A stretch of DNA of 64,000 nucleotides from Tetramitus jugosus. Lineage: Eukaryota; Heterolobosea; Eutetramitea; Acrasida; Vahlkampfiidae. Position 1 is the first letter of the stretch. Each line of letters starts with the position of its first letter. The stretch spans positions 62,001-126,000 of the forward strand of contig OW569358.1 in NCBI GenBank assembly GCA_937625935.1. The letters run 5' to 3'. The translations under genes were made by a program, and so were the position numbers. Below the pieces are notes generated by a model that saw only the letters and a list, made by a program, of their open reading frames with translations, did not search any database and was not told where the DNA came from. Below are positions 18,319 to 26,973 of this stretch, piece by piece.

Positions 18319-18403
18319 AGGACATAGTGTGAATCGAACACACGACCATAGGATGATGTTGCATTATTTGCAATCCCATGCTCTACCGCTGAGCTATATG
18401 TCC
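18319..18403 (-). tRNA. tRNA-Cys (GCA) with a 13-nt intron
   Basis: Cloverleaf on the minus strand: acceptor GGACATA/TATGTCC, D arm GCTC-AGCGGTA-GAGC, anticodon stem TGGGA/TCCTA, T arm GTGTG-TTCGATT-CACAC. Between the anticodon-stem halves are 20 nt, that is a 7-nt loop (TTGCAA plus A) plus a 13-nt intron one base 3' of the anticodon, the standard nuclear position. The mature tRNA is 72 nt. A retrotransposon fragment is inserted 43 bp upstream of its 5' end. Confidence 0.92.
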
Positions 18404-18435
18404 GCTTACAGATATGAATTTTAGAGAAAGCCCTA

Positions 18436-19545
18436 TTTCCTTGAGCGGTGCGGCTGCACGAGAAGGGAATCATCATCACTGATGACTCACATAGCCGCTG
18501 TGAAGGGTGCAAATTGTCAAATTACTTGTCAGCCAGGTCTCTCAGACTGCTCAGCAGGGTTGGGTTGTACCAAAGACAACAACTACTTAATGAGGGTAGA
18601 CTCCGGAGCTTCGAGTCACTAAAGGCCGAGGTTGGCAAGGGTTTTGGACCAAAAACATACCAAGAAGTATCCTTCGCGGTGATGGTGATGCCGGAGTGCA
18701 TGAATATGGAGCTGCATCAAACAATGGGGTTCATACATACCATCAGATTCAATGGTAAGTACGCGAGGGGAAAAGAAGATCTGAAGGAGTTGTTCCTTCA
18801 GGAACGTAAGGCGTTCATCAGTCGGAATTCGCAATGGTGGTTGCAGGTCGCTGCAATGGAACATAGGAATCAGTTCGACTTTCTCAAGAACCCGTTTGTT
18901 GTTGATCGTCAAATGGAGTGGTTCCATGCCCAAGTACGTAGTGGTACGTTACATACCAGAGTGGTATGTAACTATTTGTACGATGATGATGGCCCCAATC
19001 TATGCCCGAGATGCGGCACTGAACCTGATACAATCCTCCACTGTCTTGTCAGATGTCGGTATGCAATTGACGCCAGAAGAAGGCTTGTCGTGGAAGTCTA
19101 CAACAAGTTGCTCAAACTTCCATTGCATCGAGAGTCCGCCATCATATTATGGTTTGACAAAGTGCAGTTCAGAAACGGATTCATGTGGCCCATGCCGAGG
19201 AAGTCGAGCAGGGAGTACCTCATGGGAATGATGGGATTAGAAAACGAAGCTGTCGACCAGGTGATGGATGCACTGACGAAAAATGGGATGAAACAAGAAG
19301 TAGCGCAGCGAAAGGCCCGTGGTTTTGTGTGCTGGGTGAAGAGTCGCTGCATCACAGTGCTGCACAGACTCTACCAGCAATCAAAGGACTGCAAACAGTA
19401 GTAACGCTCTGCGAGCGTTACTAACAAGAAAGAGGAGACGCTCTACGAGCGTCACAAGGATGATCTGGGAACTTAAAGAAAGAAGGACAGAGTAATAAAG
19501 AGCAACCACGTGTTGTATTATAAAAACAAAAAGGTTTCCTTGAGC
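18436..19545 (+). mobile_element. 5'-truncated non-LTR retrotransposon (element A) upstream of tRNA-Cys
   Basis: The insertion lies between direct repeats TTTCCTTGAGC at 18436-18446 and 19535-19545 (11-bp target-site duplication). It begins abruptly inside an open reading frame, as expected from incomplete reverse transcription, and ends in an A-rich tail (TATAAAAACAAAAAGG). The 3' UTR has two perfect 7-bp hairpins, AACGCTC-TGC-GAGCGTT and GACGCTC-TAC-GAGCGTC (about 19402-19456). The element points away from tRNA-Cys and its junction is 43 bp upstream of the tRNA 5' end, the spacing used by dictyostelid TRE5 elements. Confidence 0.8.
18447..19401 (+). CDS. C-terminal part of retrotransposon ORF2 (reverse transcriptase zinc-finger end)
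   Basis: The frame is open from the first base of the element to a TAG at 19399-19401, about 317 residues, and has no native start. The polymerase domain is missing; what remains is the region after it. The diagnostic part is HARVRSG-like FHAQVRSGTLHTR followed by CPRCGTEPDTILHCLVRC, the Cys/His zinc-binding signature found at the C-terminus of many non-LTR retrotransposon ORF2 proteins. No internal stop or frameshift interrupts it, which suggests recent insertion. It is not expected to make a functional product. Confidence 0.75.
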
Positions 19546-19669
19546 CAAAGTAGATGTGATTTGGGAGCCAATTATCAGTACCCCACATCACGAGTTAAAG
19601 AGTCTCACCTCAACAAACACAGAAGAGATCAGCACCTGTCACCGTTGGTAGGATCGATGGAGAGTATCT

Positions 19670-19729
19670 AAGGCACTGCTCAAGGTATTTATCAATTCTG
19701 TTGTGCGAGATATGAAACCCTGTTCATCA
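19670..19729 (+). repeat. Diverged repeat, copy a
   Basis: About 60 bp reading AAGGCACT..CAAGGT..TTATCAA.TCTGTTGTG..GAGA.ATGAAAC.CTG. It is clearly alignable with the copies at 22874 and 23147. It lies downstream of element A, in the tract away from tRNA-Cys. Confidence 0.6.
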
Positions 19730-19831
19730 CCTTTGCAAAAGCTCTCTTCAGTCCTCTCAACACACTGAATTGGTTGGTCTTCAGTTATGAAACAAATTGA
19801 GAACAATAAAGAACGGTGTTTATAGCAATCC

Positions 19832-21127
19832 CTAATTACGTTTGCTGATTCGGATCCAATCCACCTCAAGAACATATTGGTTCACGTTCGCAGGGGCTTT
19901 TGGTCCTTGATTCCAATCCATGTTCAAAGTAATGTACAAGAAGAATGATTGATCAAAAGGCCACTGTTGGAATCCAGAATTCGCCGGTTTTTGGTATCTC
20001 AATAGTTGATTTGATCCAGCATACAACACCAAAACACTCTCATCCCAAATCAGAGAATACTGTTGGAATTGGTCAACATTGGGGTTCTCATACCTATTCT
20101 CAATAAAATCAGCAAAGTGGAATGCATGAGATGTCCTTGTAACTCCATTCATTTTCCAAGCGGCATTGTACTTCAGCATGTTAATTTCTCCTGACAGGGG
20201 CCACGGGCCATACACACCATCTCTGTCCATGATATTCAATCCACCAAACGGCCCGTCACCAGTTTGAATCCTTGCTCGAAAATCTACTCTTCCATACTTG
20301 AATGGGAAGGTATTGTAGGTCGATATTCTTCCACTATGCCACCTATCTGTTCCAGGAATTCGCGAGGCAGTCAGTCTCATTATTCCGTCTGATAAGGAAA
20401 CGCTTCCTGCAGTATAATCGTTTGAAAACCCATCTCTGACACTACAGTCTTCAGGACATCCGTCACCTACAACAACATTCCATTTGTTTGTGTCAATGCT
20501 TTTACCATTGAATTCATCTTCAAAAACGGACTTCCATCCTGCTGGGACAGCTGGAATTGATGTGCTAGTCAATGGATCTCCAGAAGATGGTGGAGGAGGT
20601 GGAGGAGGTGGAGTAGAAGGTGGAGGTGTGGAAGGCGGAGAAGGGGAAGAAGGAGAAGGACCAGATCCTAGAGGACAGAGGGAGCCGCTACAACAGCTAT
20701 ACGACTGAGGAGAGTAACAAGCACCACCACATGCCAACATTCCAGAGGGACACAATACTGTTCCAAAACAAGTGTATGTAGATGGAGGATAACATTGAGT
20801 TCCGCAGCATGACAATCCAGAGGCACAGCCACATTGAGAGGGTGGGGATGGAACAGGGGAAGGGTTAGGAGCAGGACTAGGACTAGGAGATGGAGTATTA
20901 GTCTTTTGAACTACATTGCCATCTACACAGGAATATTGGAGGGGTGAATAACAGGCTGATCCACATGATAGTGTACCAACTGGGCACAACAACCCATCGA
21001 AACATGTGTATTGGCTTGGATTGTAACAATCCGCTCCACACGACTCAAGACCGTTGGGGCACTGAGAACTCACAGATACCACAGCCAGTATCAATAGCAA
21101 AACCAATGAGGTATTCAAAGTGTTCAT
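19832..21127 (-). CDS. Secreted GH16-like glucan-binding protein with Cys-rich repeats; catalytic residues replaced
   Basis: Length 431. A signal peptide (LVLLLILAVVSVSSQ) is followed by four Cys-rich repeats of about 28 residues (pattern CPxGLxSCGxxCYxPxxYxC, residues 23-150), which resemble carbohydrate-binding or structural wall repeats. A Pro/Ser linker (about 80-98 and again 155-185) leads to a GH16 jelly-roll domain from about residue 198 (VFEDEFNGKSIDTNKWNV) to the end (VLEVDWIRISKRN). Active GH16 enzymes have an ExDxxE signature after a WPxSG motif. Here the matching segment is WPLSGEINMLKY: the first Glu is kept, but Asp has become Asn and the second Glu is Lys. The domain is therefore probably a lectin-like binder, as in insect beta-glucan recognition proteins, rather than an endoglucanase. 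Confidence 0.85.
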   Translation of the reverse strand: MNTLNTSLVLLLILAVVSVSSQCPNGLESCGADCYNPSQYTCFDGLLCPVGTLSCGSACYSPLQYSCVDGNVVQKTNTPSPSPSPAPNPSPVPSPPSQCGCASGLSCCGTQCYPPSTYTCFGTVLCPSGMLACGGACYSPQSYSCCSGSLCPLGSGPSPSSPSPPSTPPPSTPPPPPPPPSSGDPLTSTSIPAVPAGWKSVFEDEFNGKSIDTNKWNVVVGDGCPEDCSVRDGFSNDYTAGSVSLSDGIMRLTASRIPGTDRWHSGRISTYNTFPFKYGRVDFRARIQTGDGPFGGLNIMDRDGVYGPWPLSGEINMLKYNAAWKMNGVTRTSHAFHFADFIENRYENPNVDQFQQYSLIWDESVLVLYAGSNQLLRYQKPANSGFQQWPFDQSFFLYITLNMDWNQGPKAPANVNQYVLEVDWIRISKRN

Positions 21128-21340
21128 ATAGGGAGAATTGAAATCTTGTTATCTTTGTGTTTCTCTGGGAATTCCAACTATCGTCTTTAAATTGTCCAGG
21201 GTATATCTTCCTAAAAAACCAACTTAGTAAGGTAAAGAAAGCACATGGATCATCCGTAATTTGGAAACTTCCAACGGTGAAACAACCTTTGAAGGTTCGA
21301 AATCTTAGCTATTCCTGGCCATGAATGAACGTGCAAAAAA

Positions 21341-21411
21341 TGCATTGACCGGGAATCGAACCCGGGTCCTCAGCTTGGAAGGCTGAGATGCTGCCTCTAC
21401 ACCATCAATGC
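21341..21411 (-). tRNA. tRNA-Gly (TCC)
   Basis: 71-nt cloverleaf on the minus strand: acceptor GCATTGA/TCAATGC with discriminator A, anticodon loop CTTCCAA (anticodon TCC) on a 5-bp stem, T arm CCGGG-TTCGATT-CCCGG. No intron. Element B is inserted 51 bp upstream of its 5' end, in opposite orientation to the tRNA. Confidence 0.94.
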
Positions 21412-21446
21412 TCGTCGGAAAATCAATGTTAGCCAATTATCCGGAG

Positions 21447-22775
21447 AAAGAGCGCTGGTAAAACGCAGAAAAAAACGGAATCACATGTCTGGTGATTCAA
21501 CAAATTTGGTGAAGGAATACGGCAACAGCCGTTATGCAGTGTGGACCGCTGCACGGAAAGGCTCTAGGCCAAGTGACAGAGAGGTCGTCATTACTGGCAA
21601 CGGTAATGGTGTCTCTCAGTCATCTTTGGCAAGGAAGATTGGAGAGGAGTTTGGTGACTGGCTCAACCGAGTCCAAGTCATCAAGAGGAAAGGCCAGCAA
21701 CGCTTTGTTGCATGGGTGACGGTCAAGGGTGACCGCATCTATGACTTTGTTGACTTGTTCAACAAACAAAGGAGGATTGGCAACAGCACTGCTGCACCCA
21801 AGCGCAGTGTTGATTGCACAAGAAAGGTGGTCGTCCATGGCATGAAGAACATGTCAGTGGACGACATCAAGAAGCTACTGGGGCCTGAAAAGGTTGCCAG
21901 TGTGCTCAAGAAACGTGACACTGCCTTCGTGGTCATGGGTGACGAAACCTATGCACAAGCAGTGCTCAGTGGAGAGAACAAGGTAAAGGCCACGGTCACT
22001 CGGTACGTCGAGAGACCACATGATCCTCTCAAGGCAGTCAACAAGAGGTTGACAAAGATGTACGAGGAGCTGCTGACGGTGGTTGACGGACTGCGTCGAC
22101 AGGTCACAGAACTCACCAAGGAATTGGCAAAGACAAAGGGCCAAAAGGGCAACAAACCGGTTCAGATACCGGAACAAGTAGTCTCACAAAGAACTGCTCC
22201 TGGTCAAATGGAGGCAGAAGAACCAAGGAGTGCAACACCACTGCCAACAGTGCCTGTTGCACAGCTCAGCGCTGCAAATCAGCAAATCCTGGAGCAAGTG
22301 AATGCAACTTCTCCAGTGTTTGCCAGAGTGAAGAAGGAAATTGCTGCATTGGCACTAACCAGTGCACGCAAAAGGTATGGTTTGACTGAGGACGAACCAG
22401 TCATTGTGGATGTGGATGATGACTCCGAAAAGGAGATTCAGAGTCCACAACTCAATGACAACAAGAAGAGGAGTGCTAGGATCACACTGGGTGATCTGAG
22501 GAGCAACAAGGCCCAAGACAAGAAAACAACAACAGATGGCTCTGTGTCCATCGGCGGTCCTACTACAAGGTTACGCTCTTTGATGAAGGGCATCAATCAA
22601 AACACTCACCAGAGTGATTCTTCCAACCTGTAGGTGCACCGTCGGGGACAACAAGAGAAGAAGAGTGAATGACGCCCTACGGTCGTCACTCACAAAACAA
22701 GTCAATAAATGAGCAATCGTGTGCTTGCGCACACTTGGTTGTATGGAACAAAAAAAAAAAAAGAGCGCTGGTAAA
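21447..22775 (+). mobile_element. ORF1-only non-LTR retroelement (element B) upstream of tRNA-Gly
   Basis: Flanking repeats AAAGAGCGCTGGTAAA at 21447-21462 and 22760-22775 are identical over 16 bp (14 excluding As shared with the poly-A), a target-site duplication. The insert of about 1.3 kb has a 22-nt leader, one intact ORF, a 3' UTR with a near-perfect hairpin (GACGCCC-TAC-GGTCGTC) and a second hairpin GTGTGC-TTGC-GCACAC, and a pure poly-A of about 13. There is no reverse transcriptase, so it must be mobilised in trans. Its 3' UTR resembles that of element A (ACGCYCTACG..CGTCAC, then RTMAATAAA.GAGCAA). Confidence 0.82.
21485..22633 (+). CDS. Retroelement ORF1-type protein, 382 residues
   Basis: The ATG at 21485 lies 22 nt into element B. 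Residues about 30-170 contain two segments that look like small alpha/beta RNA-binding folds (VVITGNGNGVSQSSLARKI... and KVVVHGMKNMSVDDIKKLLG). A predicted coiled-coil follows (VNKRLTKMYEELLTVVDGLR, about 185-225). The C-terminal half is Gln/Pro/Thr-rich and ends in a basic region. RNA-binding fold plus coiled-coil is the usual design of LINE ORF1 proteins that coat the transcript. I cannot identify gag-knuckle Cys motifs. The frame is intact, suggesting it was active recently. In TRE5-A, ORF1 protein contacts TFIIIB; a similar targeting role is possible but unproven. Confidence 0.65.
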   Translation: MSGDSTNLVKEYGNSRYAVWTAARKGSRPSDREVVITGNGNGVSQSSLARKIGEEFGDWLNRVQVIKRKGQQRFVAWVTVKGDRIYDFVDLFNKQRRIGNSTAAPKRSVDCTRKVVVHGMKNMSVDDIKKLLGPEKVASVLKKRDTAFVVMGDETYAQAVLSGENKVKATVTRYVERPHDPLKAVNKRLTKMYEELLTVVDGLRRQVTELTKELAKTKGQKGNKPVQIPEQVVSQRTAPGQMEAEEPRSATPLPTVPVAQLSAANQQILEQVNATSPVFARVKKEIAALALTSARKRYGLTEDEPVIVDVDDDSEKEIQSPQLNDNKKRSARITLGDLRSNKAQDKKTTTDGSVSIGGPTTRLRSLMKGINQNTHQSDSSNL

Positions 22776-22873
22776 GACTTAAGGGAGGAGCTTCTGGAGG
22801 TTAAAGGGTTACACTGAAGCTTGAAGGACGCAAGAGAAGAGGGAGTCGTCGAATCAACCAAACGTGCCTGTGT

Positions 22874-22933
22874 CAAGGCACTAGACAAGGTGTACATCAA
22901 CTCTGTTGTGAAGAGAGATGAAACACTGCTCAT
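22874..22933 (+). repeat. Diverged repeat, copy b
   Basis: Same sequence class as the copy at 19670 (AAGGCACT..ACAAGGT, ATCAACTCTGTTGTGAAGAG, ATGAAACACTGCTCAT), about three quarters identical to it. It ends in GCGTTGTATTAAAAAATAAA at 22951-22970. Confidence 0.6.
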
Positions 22934-23434: not shown

Positions 23435-24427
23435 TCATCTCTTGAGCTCGAAAGTTACACAAAGAGGTAGGTGGTCCGAGGGAAAGTTATTGCTCGGTAA
23501 ATGACTTTGTAAGAACAACTCTCTATTCAAAAGTGGGTCTTCAGTGCTGAGGGGCACTAATTGATTGATTTGCTCTTCTTTGCTCATACTTGTATAATAG
23601 ACAAAGTCCAACGTATCCTCTTTCATTCCCTTCACATAATAAGTAAACTCTGGATCGTCTCCAAGCAACTCTTGATAAGCACTCTTGAAACGATAAGGAT
23701 GCGAGTAATCCTTGTCCGTATAATGTGCATTGGTCAACAAAATGTTTCTCCTCTGCTCGTACTCGATACAATTGGCATCAACAGCACTGGATGACATTTC
23801 TCCTGTTTTGAGCATGAGATGTATGGCACAATTCGGTCCACAATTGAAATCCCCACATATAATAATGTTCTGGTGAGCCGCATCAATCTCTCCCGTATGC
23901 TTCCGATTCTTTTGCAGCTCATTCAACAGTGATTTCATTTGATTGAATCGCTCGCTTGGCTTACACGGAGAGCCCTCCAAGTGAACATTGGCAATCGTAA
24001 GGATTTCCCTACCATGAACAGCAGCATCACTCAATCTTTCATCACCATCACCATTGACGATGCACCTTTGAACAAACTCTAGAGTCACCATCAGTGCTCT
24101 ACTTCGCTCATTTACATGGATCGATTTAAATTTTTCCGTCTTGTAAAACACGGCATTCCCTATTTTTTTCTTCTCCTGCACAATTCCGCAAAATCCCATA
24201 TTGTTCAACAGTGGGACCATACACGAATCATAGACACTGCGTTCAACTTCCTGAAGGCAAAAAACATCATAATCCGAATGGTTTTTGAAATGCTGCTTGA
24301 AGAGAGGCCATCGATGCTCCCAACTCGTTACCAAGTCAAAGTTTTGAACATGTGGATGACTTGTCCGAGAGATAAACGGTGTGGCAAGCATATTGTAAGT
24401 CATTAATTTGATTGTTCGATTCAGCAT
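23435..24427 (-). CDS. Endonuclease/exonuclease/phosphatase-fold protein (CCR4/Angel-like)
   Basis: Members of this fold cleave phosphodiester or phosphate-ester bonds: deadenylases, nocturnin, Angel, sphingomyelinases. The first ATG, at 24427, gives MLNRTIKLMTYNMLATPF and 330 residues. The Mg-binding and catalytic motifs are in order: TYNMLA (Asn), FCLQEVE (Glu), ANVHLEG (His), CGDFNCGP (Asp/Asn) and the terminal PSDHLPL (Asp-His). The LQEV and SDHLP motifs together with GDFN place it nearest the CCR4/nocturnin/Angel branch. There are no leucine-rich repeats as in CCR4 and no targeting peptide. Substrate cannot be read from the sequence. Confidence 0.85.
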   Translation of the reverse strand: MLNRTIKLMTYNMLATPFISRTSHPHVQNFDLVTSWEHRWPLFKQHFKNHSDYDVFCLQEVERSVYDSCMVPLLNNMGFCGIVQEKKKIGNAVFYKTEKFKSIHVNERSRALMVTLEFVQRCIVNGDGDERLSDAAVHGREILTIANVHLEGSPCKPSERFNQMKSLLNELQKNRKHTGEIDAAHQNIIICGDFNCGPNCAIHLMLKTGEMSSSAVDANCIEYEQRRNILLTNAHYTDKDYSHPYRFKSAYQELLGDDPEFTYYVKGMKEDTLDFVYYTSMSKEEQINQLVPLSTEDPLLNRELFLQSHLPSNNFPSDHLPLCVTFELKR

Positions 24428-24714
24428 TTTGTGATCTCCGTTACTTGACAAGTAGAGATTGTTGACACAGATCTGTTTGGTTGTTTTTGTTTTGTTGTGT
24501 GAATATTTTTCACTTGAAATATTGGGCCATTGGAATTAGAGTGGAAGTGCTTGTGGGGATTGAATCATAAGTCCCGCCGAGTTTAAGACACTTGGAAGAG
24601 GGTGCTCGTAAGTCCAACATGGGTTGGTTTTATTCTCTTGTAAAAACTATGTACAAAATGTCACTGGAGGGATCACACTAATGTTTTCGATTAGTGGAGA
24701 TCATTTGGAACTTC

Positions 24715-26973
24715 TCAGAATAGAAATTTAAACTCATCATCGCCATCAGGTAGCGAAAGATCTCCAGTTTGTTGAGCTGAGGATACTTGATGATACTCGG
24801 TCCTGTTATGTTGTGTCTGTTGCTGTTGTTGTTGTGAGACATGGGGCAACATGGGAGAGATCGATTGTGCAAAGTTGCTACCTGAGGATATCGTTGTGGT
24901 TTGTAGTGGTTGAATGCTGTACATTTGCTGTAGAGAGGACATCTGCAACAGTTGCAGCATGTTACTCTCTGGAACTGCCGTGCTGGCAGCAGATGACGTC
25001 TGATATGGTCTTTCTGCGTGTTGATTATTGGAATATGGATCTTGTTGATTCATGGAGCCAAAGTTGAAAGAGATGGAAGGTTGCTCTTGAACTACCGGTG
25101 CAGATGACGAGATGGATAGAGCGTTCTGTGACAGATACTGTGGTAAATTTCCGATCGCTGTTCCTAACAAGTAACGTATTGTTTGAACAATCTCAAATTG
25201 TTCGGCAGTTTTAGGCGAGTATCTCGCACTGCATTGCATCCTTGTTAAGAAATTGGATATGACCACTAATTCTTCACTTGGATCAAACAGCAATCCATTT
25301 TCTCCCGATGGGAAATCACCGGCTTCTGTTGTAAAATCATCGACAGTGATATGGAACCGTTGTTGTTCGGTACTGTGTTCAAATTCGGTCCATATATATG
25401 TTGGATTCAACTTTGTCACCGTGTTAACCGTTACAGTTTGACCGTGGAGCTTCAAAGTTACTCTTCTGCTTAACAAACGAGAACCGAACAACAATAGATA
25501 TTGCAGTGCGAGATTATAAATTGTCCAAGACTCGTTCGGAATAAGTCTAGTCATTGAAAAGTTGTGCTTGGTTTCTTCAGTAATACCAGCCGCTTGAAAA
25601 AACTTTGAGTTTCCACCAATAACAGCCAACGTTTTAGGGCACCAAATTACTACATACTTGCTCAGTTCACTGCTTGGATTCCATATCTCGATATTGTACT
25701 CTTGACTCTTGTTGGGAGATGGCGTGTTTGTATCAACTGCACCTTTGACCTTGCTAGCACTACTCGCGCTAGCGGTATTATTGTTAGTCTTGCTGTTGCG
25801 CAACGAAACCTCCTCTTCTTCCTCCTTCTTTTTGTTCAATAGCTCCTGTTTCATCATTTCATTCTGCGCTCTGAGAAACTCAACTTGCGACCGATACATG
25901 GCCAACTGATTGTTCAACGCCTCTAAAACGTTCACGTGATTGTTATTGTTGTTGTAATCCCCGAGATGAAACATTCGAGAGGGAGACGATGGCAGAGAGG
26001 ATGACAATGGATAAGAAAAGGGATTGTTGGAGTGTTGCTGCTGCTGCTGCTGCTGCTGTTGTTCATTGGCAGAAACATCAGTCGTCGCAGAATGATTAAC
26101 ACTTGTCCAATCGAATGTCGTTGCCAAAGAGGGAGGAGAGAATGAATCGGAAGGAACGGGAGAAGTACTTGAAGAGGAGTCAGAATCCTTGTCAAACGAT
26201 TCTTGAATGGACCCAGTGTCAACTGATATGCCCAACAGTGACTGAAACGACGACGACGAATGATTCTGGCGATTCTTGTTGCTGTTGTTCATTGGCGTCA
26301 CTGTAGTGGCATTATTGTTCAACATGGATTCAAAATTCCACAATGATGATGAACCATCTGATGAGTCGCGACTCTGGACTCTGGAGTGACGACTGGATTG
26401 AGCTTGCTTGCGATGACGTATCGGTACGCTACTACTACTTCTACCTGAGGAATGACTACTACCACCACTACTACCACTACTTGCATTTGCAGTCAAATTT
26501 GTCGAAGGAACAACCGTAGTAACTACGGCTGCAACACCTGACGTATGATGATGGGAAACCGATGATGACGATGATGACGTCGAATTGGACAACTTTTGCC
26601 TCTTCATTGCATCCCTATCGTACTCGAAGCATTGCTTGTTTTTTTTGAGACAATTGGAACATGGTCGGCCACCATCGCATCCAATGTGACTGGCTCGGCA
26701 ATTGTGACAACTCTTCCGATTTCTCTTTTGTTGCAAAATTTTCTCTCCGTCTGCTCTGTCGGCAACCTGATAGTATACCCAACTGGTGTTGTTGTTGTTC
26801 GTAGTCGATGGAGGAGTCGCCGATAATGGTGTTGTGGGTGTTGTGTTGTGCATATAGTTGTTGTTGTCGTTGTTGTTGTTGGTGGTGTTGGTGGTGATGG
26901 ACGTTGTTGCACCAGATGATGATTTGTTGCGACTGCTACTACTGGCAATGGGTACTGGAGTAGAAGGTGGCAT
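24715..26973 (-). CDS. Zn(2)-Cys(6) transcription factor with a PAS-like domain
   Basis: The first in-frame ATG, at 26973, gives 752 residues. Residues 89-116 form a binuclear zinc cluster, CHNCRASHIGC then PCSNC and KKNKQC (spacing C-x2-C-x6-C-x5-C-x2-C-x6-C), followed by a basic linker. Long Ser/Asn/Gln-rich stretches include a polyGln run near residue 306. A coiled-coil (AMYRSQVEFLRAQNEMMKQ) precedes a PAS-like region around residues 445-550 (YVVIWCPKTLAVIGGNSKFF...). In fungi the same order (Zn2Cys6, then PAS) occurs in the ERT1/AcuK gluconeogenesis regulators. The C-terminal 200 residues are Gln/Ser-rich, as in activation domains. Upstream of 26973 the frame stays open but has no ATG, so an unseen 5' exon is possible. 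Confidence 0.8.
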   Translation of the reverse strand: MPPSTPVPIASSSSRNKSSSGATTSITTNTTNNNNDNNNYMHNTTPTTPLSATPPSTTNNNNTSWVYYQVADRADGEKILQQKRNRKSCHNCRASHIGCDGGRPCSNCLKKNKQCFEYDRDAMKRQKLSNSTSSSSSSVSHHHTSGVAAVVTTVVPSTNLTANASSGSSGGSSHSSGRSSSSVPIRHRKQAQSSRHSRVQSRDSSDGSSSLWNFESMLNNNATTVTPMNNSNKNRQNHSSSSFQSLLGISVDTGSIQESFDKDSDSSSSTSPVPSDSFSPPSLATTFDWTSVNHSATTDVSANEQQQQQQQQQHSNNPFSYPLSSSLPSSPSRMFHLGDYNNNNNHVNVLEALNNQLAMYRSQVEFLRAQNEMMKQELLNKKKEEEEEVSLRNSKTNNNTASASSASKVKGAVDTNTPSPNKSQEYNIEIWNPSSELSKYVVIWCPKTLAVIGGNSKFFQAAGITEETKHNFSMTRLIPNESWTIYNLALQYLLLFGSRLLSRRVTLKLHGQTVTVNTVTKLNPTYIWTEFEHSTEQQRFHITVDDFTTEAGDFPSGENGLLFDPSEELVVISNFLTRMQCSARYSPKTAEQFEIVQTIRYLLGTAIGNLPQYLSQNALSISSSAPVVQEQPSISFNFGSMNQQDPYSNNQHAERPYQTSSAASTAVPESNMLQLLQMSSLQQMYSIQPLQTTTISSGSNFAQSISPMLPHVSQQQQQQTQHNRTEYHQVSSAQQTGDLSLPDGDDEFKFLF

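Follow-up and report, generated by a model that had tools for sequence, protein, structure and literature searches.

Two retroelements upstream of tRNA genes

We analysed a 64,000-nucleotide stretch of DNA (hereafter the window; contig OW569358.1, positions 62,001 to 126,000 of the forward strand, assembly GCA_937625935.1, deposited as Tetramitus jugosus), in which two retroelements, A and B, stand upstream of two different tRNA genes. Related copies were sought in the window's own assembly (26,348,746 bases in 56 contigs; the window is C15:62001-126000). Element types are designated A, B, C and D, loci by L-numbers, and contigs as C18, C23, C54 and so on. The two loci have the following features (TSD, target-site duplication; ORF, open reading frame; UTR, untranslated region).

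18319..18403, minus strand: tRNA-Cys (GCA) with a 13-nt intron, target gene of element A (ARAGORN)
18436..18446: left TSD of element A, TTTCCTTGAGC, 32 bp from tRNA-Cys (sequence reading)
18447..19534, plus strand: element A, a 5′-truncated retrotransposon of an autonomous family, with the C-terminal part of ORF2 and the 3′ UTR (about 90% identity to the ORF2 loci L002 and L013)
18448..19401, plus strand: C-terminal ORF2 fragment with a CPRC...HC zinc-knuckle-like motif (Pfam zf-RVT match below cut-off)
19494..19516, plus strand: AATAAA, then the 3′ hairpin GCAAC-CACGT-GTTGT of element A (sequence reading; hairpin type as in other element ends)
19535..19545: right TSD of element A, TTTCCTTGAGC (sequence reading)
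19591..19732, plus strand: decayed remnants behind element A (19591-19649 and 19664-19732), resembling element 3′ regions (BLASTN, 82-87% to L072, L073, L055 and others)
21341..21411, minus strand: tRNA-Gly (TCC), target gene of element B (ARAGORN)
21447..21462: left TSD of element B, AAAGAGCGCTGGTAAA, 35 bp from tRNA-Gly (sequence reading)
21463..22759, plus strand: element B, an ORF1-only, non-autonomous retrotransposon with a body of about 1288 bp common to many copies, plus poly(A)
21485..22633, plus strand: ORF1 of element B, 382 aa, with a low-confidence predicted alpha/beta region and a long helix
22713..22742, plus strand: 3′ hairpin GCAATC...GGTTGT, before the poly(A) of element B
22760..22775: right TSD of element B, AAAGAGCGCTGGTAAA (sequence reading)
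22776..22933, plus strand: decayed 3′ remnant of an older element behind element B (BLASTN, L072 81%, L107 98%, L056 93%)

Re-reading placed the two tRNA genes, the two elements and both TSD pairs where a first-pass annotation of the sequence had put them. Element A starts 43 bp from tRNA-Cys and element B 51 bp from tRNA-Gly, and both are directed away from the tRNA, as the annotation had described. ARAGORN identified 18319-18403 as a Cys tRNA with introns allowed and as an Ala tRNA without introns. The 5′ sides of the window's other two tRNA genes (Ile and Arg) contained, over about 950 bp, no match to the element DNA compared.

Insertion next to genes transcribed by RNA polymerase III

Searches of the genome with elements A and B as DNA queries gave at least 54 matches (40 of 51 candidates scored) and at least 55 matches (40 of 168 candidates scored), respectively, and the B ORF1 protein gave at least 113 (108 of 347 candidates scored). 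The ORF1 matches were classified by their identity to B as type B (mostly 84-100%), type C (about 45-52%), which begins with a start sequence unlike that of B, and type D (about 54-57%, partial). Among 30 examined B loci, 24 extended from the first base of B to position 1286 or beyond, at 90-100% identity. Our junction set consisted of the 75 intact 5′ junctions of the two ORF1-only families B (56) and C (19); type D and the 5′-truncated B copies L068, L070, L075 and L077 were excluded.

A classification script, which scored tRNA genes only in the orientation opposite to the element, assigned 46 junctions to tRNA genes, four to 5S rRNA genes and 19 to the 3′ ends of elements (recognised by a TTGTAT-poly(A) pattern), and returned six as 'none'. 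These six were read by eye: L041 and L074 face decayed tRNA genes (by an Rfam score of 33 bits and by reading alone, respectively), and L058, L060, L117 and L118 face the 3′ end of another element. The 75 junctions thus comprise 46 at intact tRNA genes (30 B and 16 C, 18 isotypes), two at decayed tRNA genes, four at 5S rRNA genes, and 23 stacked against another element's 3′ end; not one has an ordinary flank. Rfam confirmed four 5S genes in the genome. Behind the stack, a tRNA gene was visible in 11 of the 23 cases (L047, L058, L060, L059, L073, L105, L106, L110, L117, L118 and L111), being seen through neighbouring loci for L059, L073, L105, L106, L110, L117 and L118.

The first-pass annotation had held out chance as the alternative. 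In our chance model the number of tRNA genes was set generously at 1593, every first-look candidate being counted, insertions qualified within a 30-bp interval, and copies were treated as independent. It predicts a fraction of 0.0018 (about 0.18%) of insertions at tRNA genes, against the 46 of 75 observed (binomial P about 4e-106), and chance does not account for the pattern.

Viewed from the tRNA side, 15 of 53 nuclear tRNA genes had an element match within 1.5 kb on their 5′ side that points away from the gene. One had a 5′-side element in the same direction (L035, which faces a neighbouring tRNA-Gln), and none had an element downstream. The 53 genes are the 63 listed by Rfam score minus the 10 on C54 and C56; elements whose matched part is more distant, such as those with reverse transcriptases (RTs) on C18 and C23, are not among the 15. 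C54 and C56 carry tRNA genes at identical positions and perhaps represent a duplicated organelle genome. At the loci examined with ARAGORN, no tRNA gene was found within 400 bp past the 3′ ends of the matched elements.

Truncated copies were also inspected. A-family copies start near a tRNA gene at L009 (Cys), L016 (Thr), L029 (Asn), L080 (Val), L081 (Met) and L084 (Leu) and near a 5S gene at L020, and those at L078, L079, L082, L083, L087 and L088 had no tRNA gene within a flank of about 500 bp. The truncated B copies L075 and L077 face 5S genes, and L068 sits behind another element. As far as the sequence can tell, insertion upstream of genes transcribed by RNA polymerase III (Pol III genes) is targeted. 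The first-pass annotation had named tRNA genes as the target; this stood for tRNA genes but has to be widened to Pol III genes, because 5S rRNA genes are targeted as well.

Stacked insertions and an empty site

An empty counterpart was found for L048, where another tRNA-Met gene, at a distance of 1.8 kb, has a near-identical but uninterrupted flank with only one copy of the 15-bp sequence that is duplicated at the occupied site. In L047, L058, L060 and L068 a newer element separates the tRNA gene from an older element, and the same layering was seen across the neighbouring loci L113/L110, L131/L106, L122/L059, L097/L117 and L094/L118. The TSD of the newer element is visible in such stacks and sometimes takes in the first bases of the older element. 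The window elements A and B both stand before decayed element remnants. A candidate common 5′ leader of truncated copies, AAAAACGCAG, was dropped; where both sides could be read, it was the duplicated start of the older element behind.

Position of the nick relative to the gene

We took the TSD edge nearest the tRNA gene as the first-strand nick of target-primed reverse transcription, because the poly(A) end is on the far side. A TSD was counted as readable if it was an exact match of at least 10 bp and not A-rich. For B, the nick edge lay 27-30 bp from the tRNA gene at 18 of the 19 sites with a readable TSD (the edge of L045 can also be read as 26 bp; L067, with only a 7-bp repeat, at 29 bp, is not among the 19), and 21, 23 and 24 bp from the gene at three 5S sites. 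The autonomous family gave edges at 28, 29, 29 (10-bp TSD), 31, 32 (window A) and 41 bp, the full-length element on C18 gave 40 bp (11-bp repeat), and truncated autonomous-family copies gave 38 bp in L060 and 40 bp in L047. Copies of the C and D types in stacks had edges at 37, 37, 37, 38 and 39 bp, with an unsure one at 44 bp (12-bp match). A 17-bp repeat at 26 bp precedes the C copy of L115; we read it as an older insertion, because its partner sits behind a further element. TSD length was 14-17 bp in 29 of 37 readable cases.

Element starts were measured after trimming A's. The median distance was 43 bp for B (n = 30), 55 bp for C (n = 16) and 38.5 bp at 5S genes (n = 4); B differed from C with P = 3.7e-6 and from the 5S insertions with P = 0.006. 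The genome-wide distance check suggested by the first-pass annotation thus gave a sharp upstream peak, 27 of the 30 B copies at tRNA genes starting at 40-48 bp. The single spacing of 40-55 bp that the annotation had anticipated fits B but not all families, some of which nick about 10 bp further out; 13 of the 16 C copies start at 52-62 bp. A truncated C copy, L127, starts at 40 bp, and the spacing classes of B and C overlap. The four 5S insertions among the 75 start at 37-39 bp. At the L039-L067 5′ junctions, 0 to about 13 extra A's separate the TSD from the element start; these A's may be non-templated or part of a variable poly(A) leader. The mature 5S rRNA begins at its transcription start, and a tRNA has a short leader. 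We infer that an integration site fixed to the transcription start would explain the shorter distance at 5S genes.

Could the endonuclease instead respond to a sequence motif that tRNA genes merely happen to carry in their upstream flanks? T is weakly favoured on the base preceding the nick (15 of 28) and A on the one following it (16 of 28), and ATA starts 2-4 bases upstream in up to 35 of 76 tRNA 5′ flanks, possibly a start-site or TATA-like feature. However, no position is invariant around the nick or in the first TSD bases, the flanks of different tRNA and 5S genes are unrelated, and seven of the eight 5S flanks have no ATA-type motif within their first 12 bases, making recognition of a motif improbable. 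The targets share no strong motif, and we therefore read the position as taken from the gene, in agreement with the first-pass suggestion that the gene rather than a motif is recognised.

Insertion might also be random, with only the copies in harmless 5′ flanks of tRNA genes surviving selection, and compact genomes are described as favouring such havens (PMC5006619). Selection of this kind would hardly yield a nick edge at 27-30 bp at 18 of 19 sites, a single orientation, reuse of the same point in stacks and a shift at 5S genes, and we give this explanation very little credence.

Coding capacity, 3′ ends and reverse transcriptases

The full-length copy on C18, beside a tRNA-Lys gene, measures about 5.27 kb between its TSDs and carries ORF1 and ORF2. 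Its ORF1 has about 435 aa, and in this one copy the ORF2 ATG overlaps the ORF1 stop (ATGTTGA, -1 frame). ORF2 has endonuclease-like, RT and CCHC-like parts and is interrupted by two stops. Pfam identified the endonuclease domains PF03372 and PF14529 in ORF2 of L091, a relative of the C18 copy, and the RT domain PF00078 in genome ORF2s; it found no RNase H in the long ORF2 scanned. The elements thus combine an APE endonuclease and RT with TSDs, a 3′ poly(A) and variable 5′ truncation, with no long terminal repeat (LTR) seen at their ends, as is characteristic of APE-type non-LTR retrotransposons.

Element B has ORF1 only, in its genome matches as in the window, and the C and D copies were read as ORF1-only because the next stacked element follows about 1.3-1.4 kb after their start. 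The ORF1 ATG is preceded by 22 bases in B and 6-7 in C, leaving almost no 5′ UTR. B ORF1 (382-387 aa) is open in 24 of 30 loci and 29% identical to the C18 ORF1. Its ratio of nonsynonymous to synonymous substitution rates was 0.27 (276 pairs, 24 open copies) and about 0.50 for changes private to one copy. From these ratios, B ORF1 seems to be kept by selection in the spreading lineage and to drift more in single copies. A B-like ORF1 of 95% identity (P0101) lies on a 1.6-kb public contig from another source, which means that public sequence outside this genome also contains B-like elements.

No Pfam domain reached the cut-off in B ORF1, and a PDB profile search gave weak coiled-coil-type matches. 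The AlphaFold model had a mean pLDDT (predicted local distance difference test) of 52, with residues 31-100 at 73-83 in an RRM-like order of strands and helices and a long helix at 181-218. Foldseek returned nothing for it at E <= 0.001, the best match being eIF4E (E 1.3e-3). Because the AlphaFold model is weak and Foldseek gave no match at this cut-off, we claim no fold for ORF1. A stretch of 25 residues (ORF1 profile positions 118-142) matches the end of PDB 8vd6_A (CAP REPEAT) with E 5e-10, probably by chance or through composition.

We collected 99 element 3′ ends by the TTGTAT-poly(A) pattern and sought the left arm of a hairpin from a list of spellings. Ninety-four of the ends form a hairpin, and five are without a left arm. 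The outer arms are mostly GCAAC/GTTGT or GCAATC/GGTTGT (the GCAAC...GTTGTAT type), and the inner arms vary between families. Because the pattern fixes the right arm and the left-arm spellings were preset, the outer stem represents conserved sequence rather than demonstrated covariation.

The RVT_1 profile matched 73 places in the genome, and eight RTs were compared in detail. They fall in four lineages, with pairwise core identities from 55% to nearly 100%, and, set against the 100 RTs that the database search returned, they grouped as a single clade (100/99) with a long branch; the dictyostelid TRE5 elements are not knowingly included among those 100. The top database match had E 2.5e-32, and identities reached 33% over parts. 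A simple correspondence between nick position and the ORF1 tree is not supported: the ORF1s of B and C-like copies (P0103, P0105) resemble each other more than they resemble that of C18, although the outer position is common to C and C18. At C3:2089, C17:2337, C1:4436, C22:2739, C48:379851 and C9:603492 an RT fragment sits 2-9 kb from the end of its contig, and a further one is at C10:606104, on a contig whose length was not seen. Five of the seven share a partial match at profile positions 106-164 and perhaps form a subtelomeric RT family.

Other genes of the window

Between elements A and B, a protein encoded at 19832-21127 (minus strand), whose start lies near tRNA-Gly, has carbohydrate-binding repeats and a GH16 match below cut-off. 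The protein at 23438-24451 has a best database match of 42%, its matches being unnamed or distant. TRAP1, PPDK, alpha-SNAP and TIMELESS were among the matches in Pfam and PDB scans of the window genes, which turned up no marker of a particular lineage. The protein at 24718-26973 (minus strand) has a Zn2Cys6 (fungal-type) domain and poly-N tracts, not expected in the presumed host.

Comparison with known Pol III-associated elements

TRE5-A (DRE) of Dictyostelium discoideum resembles the present elements in inserting about 47 bp upstream of tRNA genes and closer to 5S genes, in opposite orientation and in tandem at occupied sites, with extra nucleotides at the 5′ junction, an ORF1 and an APE-RT-zinc finger ORF2, and autonomous and non-autonomous forms. 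Reported TRE5 distances are 44-54 bp upstream of tRNA genes, in opposite orientation, and 37-41 bp at 5S genes (PMC5911963); for TRE5-A, they are 47 ± 3 bp and 37-42 bp, respectively, with tandems and the non-autonomous TRE5-A.2 (PMC5391098). The ORF1 protein of TRE5-A binds TFIIIB subunits (PMC5911963). The TRE5 arrangement of two ORFs, with ORF2 in the -1 frame and an ORF1 of about 51 kDa, is found in the C18 copy (ORF1 of about 435 aa). TRE5-A has A, B and C modules in its UTRs, whereas B and C have scarcely any 5′ UTR. The present elements differ from TRE5-A in the 22 and 6-7 nt that precede ORF1 in B and C, in the shared 3′ hairpin, in their two spacing classes and in the use of dispersed 5S genes. 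Their RTs stand isolated from the database RTs obtained, a comparison set with no known TRE5 sequence.

NLTR-B of Polysphondylium pallidum is likewise a non-LTR element, located 39-64 bp upstream of tRNA genes, but has an RNase H domain and three ORFs (PMC5911963), unlike the long ORF2 scanned here, which gave no RNase H match in Pfam. Yeast Ty3 and Ty1 and also DGLT-A share Pol III gene targets with the present elements, but they are LTR elements with an integrase and occupy other positions (PMC5006619, PMC5911963). In searches of open-licence PMC papers by title and opening of the abstract, no tRNA-targeting LINE (long interspersed nuclear element) was reported outside dictyostelids, be it in Naegleria, other Heterolobosea or other protists.

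The elements could be true TRE5 descendants, either inherited vertically in a dictyostelid-like host or acquired horizontally. Some host proteins have poly-N tracts, and one of them a Zn2Cys6 domain; these are dictyostelid-like traits too. The G+C content of the window, 41.6%, is however well above that of dictyostelids. The similar spacing, opposite orientation, tandem insertion, extra 5′-junction nucleotides, coexistence of autonomous and non-autonomous forms, and an APE-RT-zinc finger ORF2 in the -1 frame to ORF1 all recall TRE5 (PMC5911963, PMC5391098). On the other hand, the eight 5S matches of this genome (four by Rfam, four by pattern) are spread over seven contigs, whereas TRE5-A in D. 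discoideum targets the 5S gene of the extrachromosomal rDNA (PMC5911963, PMC5391098), and no Dictyostelium name appears among the 100 listed nearest RTs, the search being word-limited and most entries nameless. Moreover, targeting of this kind has arisen repeatedly, at least six times, TRE targeting itself being described as unique to dictyostelids (PMC5006619). We consider descent from TRE5 unlikely.

Proposed mechanism and implications

We conclude, with a probability of roughly 0.88, that A and B belong to an APE-endonuclease/RT non-LTR lineage whose members insert at a constant position upstream of Pol III genes in the following manner. The element ribonucleoprotein would dock on the Pol III initiation complex, most likely on TFIIIB. 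The ORF2 endonuclease would then nick the first strand upstream of the tRNA gene, at about 28 bp for B and most A-type elements and at about 37-41 bp for C, the L007-type and one A-like copy. From the nick, ORF2 would prime reverse transcription on an RNA recognised via its 3′ hairpin and poly(A), and a second nick about 15 bp further out would create the TSD. B and C, encoding only ORF1, would borrow ORF2 from autonomous families. By analogy with TRE5-A, TFIIIB is the likely positional cue.

Several observations weigh against this conclusion. At 12 of the 23 stacked junctions no Pol III gene was seen behind the stack within the DNA read, and for L070, a 5′-truncated B copy, the 600-bp flank contained nothing recognisable as a target. 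The B copy of the window is itself the exception among B sites, with its nick edge at 35 bp, and L101, another B copy, is separated from its tRNA gene by only 9 bp. The spacing does not have a single mode, since C and some ORF2 elements lie about 10 bp further out. All nick positions for C come from stacked copies, and two of the C copies that are not stacked start at 44-46 bp. The weak base preference at the nick points to some sequence taste of the endonuclease. The contact with TFIIIB is deduced solely from the geometry and the TRE5-A precedent.

As a tentative extension, a lineage unrelated to TRE5 might have evolved TFIIIB-guided integration independently in a distant eukaryote. The docking part would set the phase of the nick, either at about 28 bp or, one turn of DNA away, at about 38-40 bp, as though the families gripped the same complex from the same face. 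ORF1-only elements might keep ORF1 as a targeting protein and steal ORF2, and B and C, with almost no 5′ UTR, may borrow the tRNA gene's open chromatin or divergent start as promoter.

The occupied tRNA loci are layered records of successive insertions. The two spacing classes, the autonomous and ORF1-only elements, and the tRNA and 5S targets would amount to a natural experiment on which protein sets the site, with a bearing on safe-harbour integration. If the host is not a dictyostelid, this second system of the same geometry, with its many natural copies, would show LINEs to have arrived repeatedly at the Pol III initiation complex as a landing pad.

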